Positions 27,607-30,600 of a DNA stretch of 64,000 nt are shown here, one piece after another; the stretch's first letter is position 1; every line of letters begins with the position of its first letter. This stretch comes from Vreelandella azerica (GTDB taxonomy: Bacteria > Pseudomonadota > Gammaproteobacteria > Pseudomonadales > Halomonadaceae), in assembly GCF_013112225.1 (NCBI RefSeq), contig NZ_JABFHI010000001.1, positions 744,001 through 808,000 on the forward strand, given 5' to 3'. The notes beneath the pieces are model-generated. The model made no database searches. It saw only the letters and a list, made by a program, of their open reading frames with translations, and was not told the DNA's origin. Made by a program: the position numbers and the translations under genes.

Positions 27607-30600
27607 ATGGTTAATAAATTTTTAGTTTATTTTTTGTGCTCTTTGTTTTTAATTATCTCAAACTCTTCATTTGTTCAAGCAGGGGCATTTCTCGATCCTG
27701 ATGATTTACCGGATTACTCAGATGAAGATAGTTCTGGGGAAGGCAACAACGGCAACAACGGCAACAACGGCAACAACGGCAACAACGGCAACAACGGCAA
27801 CAACGGCAACAACGGCAACAACGGCAACAACGGCAATGATGATGATGTTTTAGAGGATGAAACTCCTAGCACTCCGTCAACTGGTAATGGAGATGCAGTT
27901 TACGAAGACTACGAAATACCTAATGATGAAATAGGTATGTCTTCTGCGCCACTGAATACAGTCTCGCGCGTGCCGCCGAATGTGCTGCTGATTCTTGATA
28001 ATGCTGAAAGCGGTCAGGAAGGCCTGGATGGGCGAGTCGCTGTAGGTGGTGAAATAGGCGATAAGTTCGTCGACAGGGACGATCCAGAATGCCAACCAGA
28101 AAATATCAGTTCTGAAACTTGCCCCGCAGGTGCGAAATCTAGCTTAAGTAAGTCCAGTATCATGAAATCAGTTGGTTTGAGGTTAATTAAAGACTATAAA
28201 GATGAAATTAATATGGGGTTGATGGCATACCAGCAATATCCTGCTTCAACAACCCAACAAAGTGTTTTTGCCAGTACTCTAACAAACGGTACAGCTCTTT
28301 GGAATTTGACTGAGCGAGCTCTTGACGTAAGATATTCAAAAAAGATAAACCTGATTTCTTTGATCCCGATTTTTCTGGTAATTGGGATGCTTCTCAAAAA
28401 AGGTATAGGGTAGATCTGCCTAGCTCAGATTTTTATGCTTTCTTTAATGTTGGTGTTCCAGGTTACTATAGTAGGAATGGTACAGAATATTGGCAAAGGA
28501 ATAGTTCAAGCAATGCAGTTGAGCATTGGGTTTACCGTTATCGTGATATTGGTATATCTGGCTCAAGTGAAACTGCTACAGAAGGTGTTTTTTATAGTGA
28601 TAGAGTCGGAGGTGACACCAGAATTCCTTTAGTAGACAGTCTTCGACAGAGAGGAATACCCAACTGGGGAGAGGATTTGCTTTCCCTGGCATTGAACCAA
28701 ACTGAATGGAGAAGCACTGTCTCTCCTGGCTTAGGATATTTACATGTGCCTATTGGGGGCTTAATGAAGATGGCACTGTTAATGAAGACCATTGGGGAAG
28801 AATAAGTACTAAACTGGGTAAGCAGCGGCATGATTGGCCGGGTGAATTGGGTGAGGCTGATAACCCTATGACAGATCCCTCCTGGCCAATTATTTCCGCA
28901 GGCCTAACCCCTCTTGAAGGTACCATGTACACAGCAACCGATTATTTCCTGAATAGAACTGGTTATTTTAATCGTAATCAAGGAAATAATGGATTTGAGC
29001 TTCCCAATATTGATAACCCAGAAGCAAGTCAATGTCTTGTTAACGCCAACATCTGGCTGACAGACGGGTTACCATCTGTTGACCGTTCGGGTCGTCCCCT
29101 TGGTTCAAATGTGAAAGAGGCAATTGCTCAGGCCGAGTCTTCAATAAAGCGTTTGTATTGCGAATCTTATAAACCAAATCCAGAAAAATCAGTTACCAAT
29201 TATCAACAGATATGTAAAGATTATGATCAGGAAAGTGTTTATAATGGCAATCGTTTAAATGATCCCGTTAAGACTTATGTCGTAGGTTTCAGTCTCCCGC
29301 CGGATGTGGTCAATATCTTCGGTGATGGTGAAAACCCTCTTAACGTACTTGCCGCAGCAGGCGGTACCGATCAGGCTTACCTTGCAAATGACGAAGACTC
29401 ACTTAATGAAGTGATGCAGCAGGTTTTTGGTAACATCATTGCCGGCGCTCAGTACAATACCTCAGCGGCTTCAAATGTTAGTGAGCTAAACGCTGCAACA
29501 GATTCTTTTATTTATACGGCCAGTTTTGATAGTGGAGATTGGTCTGGCACCTTAGAAGCCTATCGCATCGGAACGGATGGCAGCCTGGCACTAGAGTGGT
29601 CGGCAGAAGATAGTCTCAGCTCTCAGGCAGAAAATCGCAATTTGCTCACTTCTACAGTGATAAGAAATGAAGATGAAAGCTTATCGACGACTGGCGTGAT
29701 GCTCAATGAATCGACGACGCAATTAACAGTGCCAGAGGTGAGTTGGCTAAAGGGTCAAAATGTTGAAGGTCTTCGCAATCGTCAATTCCTGCTGGGTGAT
29801 ATTATTAACTCTAACCCTAGAGTCATTCCTGCAACCGATGAACGTTCAGGTGTGGTGTTGGTAGGAGCCAATGATGGTATGCTGCATGGATTTGATACCA
29901 AGACTGGTAGAGAGCTTTTTGCCTACATGCCGGCTGAGCTGAGTTTTGGAGAAAACCCAGCGATCCGTGAGTTGATGCAACCAAATTATGCCCACCGCTA
30001 TTTTGTCGATGGTGAGACAACAGTTAAAGAAGTGACCATTGATGGCAAACAACGGGTTATTGCCGTTGGAACCATGGGGGCAGGTGGGCGCTCAGTCTTT
30101 GCATTGGATATTACTGACCCTGGAAACGTAGGGTCTGATGATGTTCTGTGGGAATTCCGTCATCCTGAGCTAGGCGTTGGAGTGAGCAGTGCAAAAATTA
30201 CAGAGATAGACGGTGTACCGGTAGCTGTCTTTGGTAATGGTTATAATAGTACTGGGTATCAAGCTTCTCTATTTATAGTGGATTTGAAAACGGGTAATTT
30301 TTTGATCTCTGATAGCAATGGCCATGCGATGCCTATCAGCACAGGTTCTGGTAGCGCAGACGCCCCTAATGGTTTGGCGGCACCTGCGGTTTTAAGTAAT
30401 AGCGGAGTGGCTTACGCAGGGGACCTTAAGGGTGATATGTGGCGTTTTGATCTAAAAAATAAAAGTGTGCGTAAACTGTATAGCGGAAGCCCTGATCGTC
30501 CTATTACCTCTGCTCCTGCGTTGACCGCCAGTAACATTCGTCCAAATACAATGATGGTGTTATTTGGTACAGGTAGTTATTTCCGTAACAGTGATATTGG

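Follow-up and report, generated by a model that had tools for sequence, protein, structure and literature searches.

A perfect 9-bp tandem array lies near the 5' end of a pilY1-type gene in the DNA analysed here, a continuous stretch of 64 kb from Vreelandella azerica (hereafter the window), and it is likely a recent, frame-keeping slippage expansion in a disordered, acidic and mutation-tolerant N-terminal tail of PilY1. Such arrays, minisatellites that lie inside the gene of a surface protein and keep its frame, are a known kind of element. The expansion has probably been tolerated as a near-neutral change, and from its sequence and setting we infer slippage, cleavage of the signal peptide, disorder of the tail and neutrality.

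A pure minisatellite near the start of pilY1

According to Tandem Repeats Finder, the array occupies positions 27742-27836 with a period of 9, 10.6 copies, 100% matches, no indels and a score of 190, and its letters are ten whole GGCAACAAC units followed by GGCAA. Each unit codes for Gly-Asn-Asn in frame with the open reading frame (ORF) from 27607, the array begins at codon 46, and the encoded protein segment, (GNN)10-GN or about 32 residues, is found after a signal-peptide-like start and before the conserved 'APLN..PPNVLLILDN' region. The preliminary description of this DNA had recognized exact 9-bp copies in a PilY1 gene, a unit that keeps the coding frame and a place between the signal peptide region and the von Willebrand A (vWA)-like domain, all of which are confirmed; of the range it gave, 27742-27840, the start is right, while the last four bases (27837-27840) belong to the flank.

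The GGCAACAAC array is far beyond chance. Of 390 genomes sampled across the order, one, the window's own, has four exact consecutive units, and even three exact units occur in that genome at a single place, the pilY1 array. The ten units are identical at synonymous positions as well, and therefore point to a recent expansion. Recent slippage had also been proposed in the preliminary description, and the 100% purity, the lack of synonymous change between copies and the absence of the array from 18 other orthologs of the genus agree with it. RNA of the region folds less well than shuffled sequences (z = +2.05) and thus gives no indication of a translational hairpin at the array.

In the proposed mechanism, replication slippage (or unequal exchange) would have duplicated the GGCAACAAC unit, multiples of three would have left the pilY1 frame undisturbed, and the tail between the signal peptide and the vWA-like domain would tolerate insertions, so that an expansion adding about 32 residues to a tail of 54-56 residues could persist. 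Once the signal peptide is cleaved, this tail would form the free N-terminus of mature PilY1.

The pilY1 locus and its four pieces

The identity of the locus is indicated by the match of its third piece to PF05567, the PilY1 beta-propeller (E 1.5e-29, 103.6 bits against a cut-off of 28.1) and by the four genes directly upstream, which match Pfam GspH, Tt1218-like/N_methyl, PilW and PilX_N and are thus minor pilins. The named relatives closest to the protein among the matches listed are of Halomonas/Vreelandella. In the assembly, pilY1 is not one open reading frame but is spread over four ORFs (27607-28413, 28326-28805, 28706-30910 and 30871-31188), with three -1 shifts at runs of 5-6 bases, an interruption that the preliminary description had overlooked. 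The locus is classed as pilY1 by homology, not as an intact gene. Homologous proteins from all seven relatives compared span the four pieces, running in frame 1 from about 27841-27916 to about 28350, in frame 3 up to 28763, in frame 2 up to about 30889 and again in frame 1 from about 30877 to 31185, and each of these relatives has one open pilY1 frame of 1129-1193 aa. The features are collected in Table 1.

Table 1. Coordinates of the pilY1 locus, its array and nearby minor pilin genes, and of three other split genes of the window
Feature	Positions	Strand	Basis
Minor pilin genes of the same cassette (GspH/FimT-type, PilV-type as presumed from position, PilW, PilX)	25205..27606	+	Pfam
pilY1 start, signal-peptide-like N-terminus, 25 aa ending VQA	27607..27681	+	ORF; hydrophobic core by eye
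Mature tail, acidic first part (GAFLDPDDLPDYSDEDSSGE)	27682..27741	+	ORF and tail comparison
Minisatellite, 10.6 perfect GGCAACAAC copies, (Gly-Asn-Asn)n	27742..27836	+	Repeat finder and exact-copy genome searches
Tail, acidic second part up to conserved APLN	27837..27945	+	Tail comparison
Conserved vWA-like region, beginning; DNAES at 27997-28011	27946..28350	+	Relatives' proteins
Frame break 1 (-1), A6 run 28338-28343	28338..28350	+	Relatives' proteins (7 of 7) change frame
pilY1 piece 2	28341..28763	+	ORF, relatives' proteins
Frame break 2 (-1), G5 run 28755-28759	28755..28763	+	Relatives' proteins (7 of 7)
pilY1 piece 3: remaining vWA-like region and beta-propeller PF05567	28757..30910	+	Pfam, relatives' proteins
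Frame break 3 (-1), G5 run 30886-30890	30877..30892	+	Relatives' proteins (7 of 7)
pilY1 piece 4, C-terminus	30877..31188	+	ORF, relatives' proteins
pheA	8595..9805		Split by small indel relative to sister
tyrA-aroA	9775..12095		Split by small indel relative to sister
glnS	51635..53487		Split by small indel relative to sister

The name 'vWA-like', a provisional one, rests on the position of the region and on the DNSES motif. The MIDAS-like motif reads DNSES in all 18 other genus orthologs and DNAES in the window, where it departs from the MIDAS consensus DxSxS, a difference that the preliminary description does not mention. The vWA profile of Pfam has no match at E up to 1 in any of the seven rows of the ortholog alignment, a PDB sequence search of the region gave no match up to E 0.1, and structure models reached mean pLDDT values of 31.7 for the N-terminal part of ortholog L042 (578 aa) and 41.0 for the first piece of the window's gene (247 aa), too low in both cases to be used.

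Origin of the frame breaks

The three frame breaks of pilY1 are most likely errors of the assembly. This reading is based on comparison with a sister genome of one contig (G034), which is syntenic with the window and 94-96% identical over most aligned bases, three aligned blocks being at only 86-91% identity. Relative to this sister, indels of 1-2 bases break pheA (9348), tyrA-aroA (10238) and glnS (52159), and indels likewise break a gene of the inositol-phosphatase family (31454), one for a conserved 415-aa protein (33764), an aldo-keto reductase gene (37161 and 37326) and a kinase-like gene (62828). This background amounts to 7 of 41 sister ORFs (8 shifts) kept as broken out of 12 flagged, the other five being judged stop-to-stop ends, upstream extensions, an ambiguous start or a wrong-strand ORF. 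In the reverse comparison, 11 of 43 window ORFs were flagged in the sister and one was kept (the C-terminus of trigger factor); the remaining ten were taken as the same breaks seen reversed or as upstream extensions. The glnS gene has a single genomic place, where it is split over two frames, besides two weak partial matches to other genes, and joint loss of pheA, aroA and glnS would not be plausible in a living cell. Since breaks of this sort also affect pheA, tyrA-aroA and the sole glnS, those of pilY1 probably have the same origin. According to the accessible text of PMC8812927, the errors that most often remain in long-read-only assemblies concern homopolymer length; each of the three pilY1 breaks falls at a short homopolymer, and outside pilY1 some indels relative to the sister are not in such runs. 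The completeness of the assembly is 89.5%.

A split was also seen outside the window in the same assembly, in mutS (G000:C12:561739-564269), which is in two pieces and two frames. Given the error rate of the assembly, this proves nothing about a mutator, and that idea was set aside.

That pilY1 is a pseudogene or has been switched off in this lineage, and that the array grew once constraint was lost, is unlikely. Three breaks in 3.6 kb are to be compared with about 0.6 expected from about 8 in 48 kb (Poisson P ~0.02), and this density above the background makes real decay of the gene possible, as do the DNAES motif and the conservation of the protein, which keeps 77% of the columns that are invariant among 11 relatives, while each relative keeps 97-99%. 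However, the window's protein is the most distant of the 12 (mean identity 54%), fewer kept columns are therefore expected, and with this protein as the outgroup the 77% is compatible with decay or with distance. Between the breaks, each of the four pieces is also free of stop codons, and genes such as pheA, tyrA-aroA and the single glnS are broken in a like manner. Moreover, if this is a long-read-only assembly, the breaks have the homopolymer setting of its commonest error (PMC8812927, in the text accessible).

Besides assembly error and decay, the breaks could be related to regulated expression, either phase-variable as in Neisseria pilC or through programmed -1 frameshifting at the A6-G run, although this is extremely unlikely. 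Break 1, a -1 shift, coincides exactly with A AAA AAG (28338-28344), which we take to be a classical slippery heptamer, but break sites 2 and 3 are not slippery heptamers, a complete product would require three shifts, each on its own, to be bypassed, and the seven close relatives each have one open frame. Runs of 5-6 bases, as in pilY1, are short for contingency tracts, and the 9-bp array is unable to switch the frame. Neisseria PilC1 and PilC2, homologues of PilY1, do resemble the window in that a gene of the PilY1 family undergoes slippage in its 5' portion; in their case, as the available portion of PMC13190605 describes, poly-G tracts in the signal-peptide region cause phase variation by switching expression, whereas the window's unit keeps the frame. 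A contingency (phase-variation) locus was accordingly rejected, as a 9-bp in-frame unit switches neither frame nor promoter.

The N-terminal tail in related bacteria

The N-terminal part of a PilY1 of the window's type is encoded in 19 of 82 genus genomes, the window's own included, and PF05567 matches are present in 18 of the 82. Up to APLN, the tails of the 18 other orthologs measure 15-65 residues, with 16 of them at 47-65 and two, without such repeats, at 36 aa (L136) and 15 aa (L137); the tail thus varies between species and its length is not fixed. The window's tail has 86 aa (88 if cut after VQA), at least 21 residues more than in any of these orthologs, and after removal of the 32 array residues it has 54-56, which is within the genus range, and hence the array seems to have been added to a tail of the usual kind. 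The concentration of 16 of 18 relatives at 47-65 residues hints that some tail of about this length may be useful. These lengths were measured on 20 loci, that is, all 19 genus loci with this PilY1 plus L043; a pattern-based comparison of the tails had yielded 21 of 23 loci, L136 and L043 missing its pattern. L040, L041, L042 and L043 share their tails with L134, L129, L130 and L136, respectively; each pair seems to be a single genome and was counted once.

The composition of the tail distinguishes the window as well. Its tail has 23 Asn against 0-2 in the 18 other orthologs, 16 of which have 12-23 Pro, and basic residues number 0-2 in the orthologs and 0 in the window. The tails of other Halomonas/Vreelandella PilY1 proteins (e.g. 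L040-L043; L120-L137) belong to the same gene and the same place, and share with the window mostly low complexity, the scarcity of basic residues and, in several, repeats at the DNA level. The relatives' repeats are mainly degenerate 6-bp units coding for (Glu/Asp/Thr)-Pro, in contrast to the perfect 9-bp Gly-Asn-Asn unit of the window, and their arrays of at least 4 copies show 72-91% matches in a scan that covered 15 of 23 ortholog loci, minus-strand loci being left out. Degenerate (D/E/T)P repeats in relatives suggest that low-complexity expansion recurs at this tail across the genus. Across genera, among the best 80 of more than 595 PilY1-type matches, tail arrays of at least 4 copies were found in L040 and L042 alone, both from Halomonas/Vreelandella; this survey used the longest ORF per locus, and in a few cases (e.g. 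L063, L091) that ORF differs from the one matching PilY1.

Variation of repeats in PilY1 was not found described in the open literature, to which the search was confined, subscription papers being outside its scope; this includes the accessible part of a Xylella paper (PMC1574315). Likewise, tails of the window's type do not appear in the available parts of PMC9210963 or PMC4471445, the latter of which reports, in that part, diversity among the N-terminal domains of PilC/PilY1 orthologues.

Probable position of the tail at the pilus tip

The start of the window's PilY1 resembles a type I signal peptide by eye, with a hydrophobic core and a VQA|GA site. In Myxococcus, as stated in the accessible sections of PMC7541494, PilY1 has a type I signal peptide, its C-terminal domain is at the shaft, and its N-terminal vWA domain is at the ultimate tip. 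Predicted cleavage and this orientation, taken together, would place the array in a free N-terminal tail, not between the shaft and the tip domain, and units added there would not push the vWA-like domain outwards. By this analogy, a longer or shorter array would probably change the reach of the tip domain little or not at all. The preliminary description had interpreted the array as a linker that may tune this reach, an interpretation that does not fit an array N-terminal to the outermost domain, in a putative free tail instead of a spacer.

For the array to be such a spacer, the number of GNN units, selected or variable between cells, would set the stand-off of the vWA-like domain. This is very unlikely: the unit keeps the frame, the copies are perfect and the protein is a surface adhesin, but the array is not located between an anchor and the domain, the sequence of the tail is unconserved, and two of the 18 other orthologs have only 15 and 36 aa there. 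Variable-length surface proteins of such logic do exist. In Periscope Proteins, near-identical tandem units are found in the gene of a surface protein, as in the window, but according to the portion of PMC8201768 available these units are folded domains that build a rod projecting a ligand domain, while the window's unit is a triplet of residues, belongs to a putative free tail at the N-terminus and is no folded, rod-forming domain. The window's protein was not counted among the Periscope Proteins, its unit being of three residues and N-terminal to the vWA-like region.

Another comparison is offered by Lcl of Legionella, a collagen-like adhesin with tandem Gly-X-Y triplets in variable number, where the number of triplets can matter in the adhesin (PMC6460258, available part). 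The window's repeat is also of the Gly-X-Y form; it differs in comprising only about ten triplets and in being free of proline. A collagen-like protein was rejected as well, since, despite the Gly-X-Y periodicity, the Pfam Collagen profile scores 21.8 bits against a cut-off of 27.2.

Asn-Gly steps deamidate fast. It might be speculated, with only a slight chance of being right, that the Halomonas PilY1 tail is a fast-evolving, slippage-driven brush exposed at the tip, that its amount and charge, and not its length as a spacer, tune access to the vWA-like face, and that Asn-Gly deamidation with pilus age alters the charge of the tip. If so, the ten Asn-Gly steps would give a charge-neutral array the acidity that most relatives encode as (Glu/Asp)-Pro. 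Under the preferred interpretation of a tolerated expansion, the case warns against taking every exact repeat in an adhesin for a spacer. Should length variation with an effect nevertheless prove true, it would add a frame-keeping route to a family known for on/off phase variation in Neisseria PilC.

Reliability and dynamics of the arrays

In a survey of arrays with at least 4 copies, a period of 5 or more and 90% or more matches, three were found in the 64-kb window and none in the syntenic 75 kb of the sister; on a larger scale, none were found in 300 kb elsewhere on the window's contig and three in 300 kb of the sister, and on these counts a genome-wide excess of arrays was rejected. Besides the pilY1 array, two in the window have at least 5 copies: a TCACCAC array at 20801-20836 has 5.1 copies against about 2 in the sister, and an array of the 14-bp unit GGTCGGTCTGACAC at 54920-55028 has 7.9 copies against 2 imperfect ones; both were selected for being long in the window, and the sister's copies were read from its sequence. 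Two arrays of the window with 2 copies (at 3107 and 47824) have equal copy number in the sister. Such comparisons suggest that arrays can change within the time that separates two species of about 94-96% identity, and the pilY1 array is a possible strain-typing marker for the species. The TCACCAC heptamer, read as TGAGTGG, also occurs elsewhere in the sister, with 10.4 copies at L200:15733-15805.

It is highly improbable that the copy number of the pilY1 array, or the whole array, is an artefact of assembly. Suspicion might arise from the many small indels of this assembly relative to the sister, and from the clustering of three arrays of at least 5 copies in the window on a contig with no array of at least 4 copies in the other 300 kb. 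Nevertheless, at 95 bp the array is short enough to be spanned by ordinary short reads and by long ones alike, the indels that break genes comprise 1-2 bases and not 9-bp units, and frame and flanks are intact around the array, the exact count of which could be one unit off.

Apparent exchange of the tip-gene cassette

The surroundings of the array differ from the sister on a much larger scale. Positions 25048-31237 of the window, with most of the minor pilin genes and pilY1, have no DNA-level counterpart in G034, although both flanks align, and in the sister this site is occupied by other pilin-type genes and by one for a protein of 856 aa that carries DUF7305 and, by eye, starts like PilX. 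Neither a protein match to pilY1 nor a PF05567 match was found anywhere in the G034 genome. The 856-aa protein has strong matches (E below 1e-50) in 16 of the 82 genus genomes, and the overlap of these 16 with the 19 carriers of PilY1 is 0 where about 3.7 would be expected (P ~0.01, a value that ignores relatedness and depends on an E threshold chosen afterwards). With a looser threshold the separation is less clean, since one genome (G085) carries PilY1 and also, to the later part of the 856-aa protein, a match of lower significance (E 1.9e-14). In two others (G026 and G028) pilY1 is separated from pilB-pilC by about 1.5 Mb in genome coordinates. As judged from these alignments, close species appear to exchange entire pilus-tip cassettes, and such a swap amid surroundings of about 94-96% identity would bear more directly than the array on the evolution of pilus-tip specificity.

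Two further differences from the sister involve mobile elements. A transposase gene of the OrfB/TnpB type at 16265-17611 is part of a stretch missing from the sister, and an insertion element at 35836-37095, presumably IS3-type by its two ORFs and absent from the sister, is inserted within a gene which we take to be that of the aldo-keto reductase.
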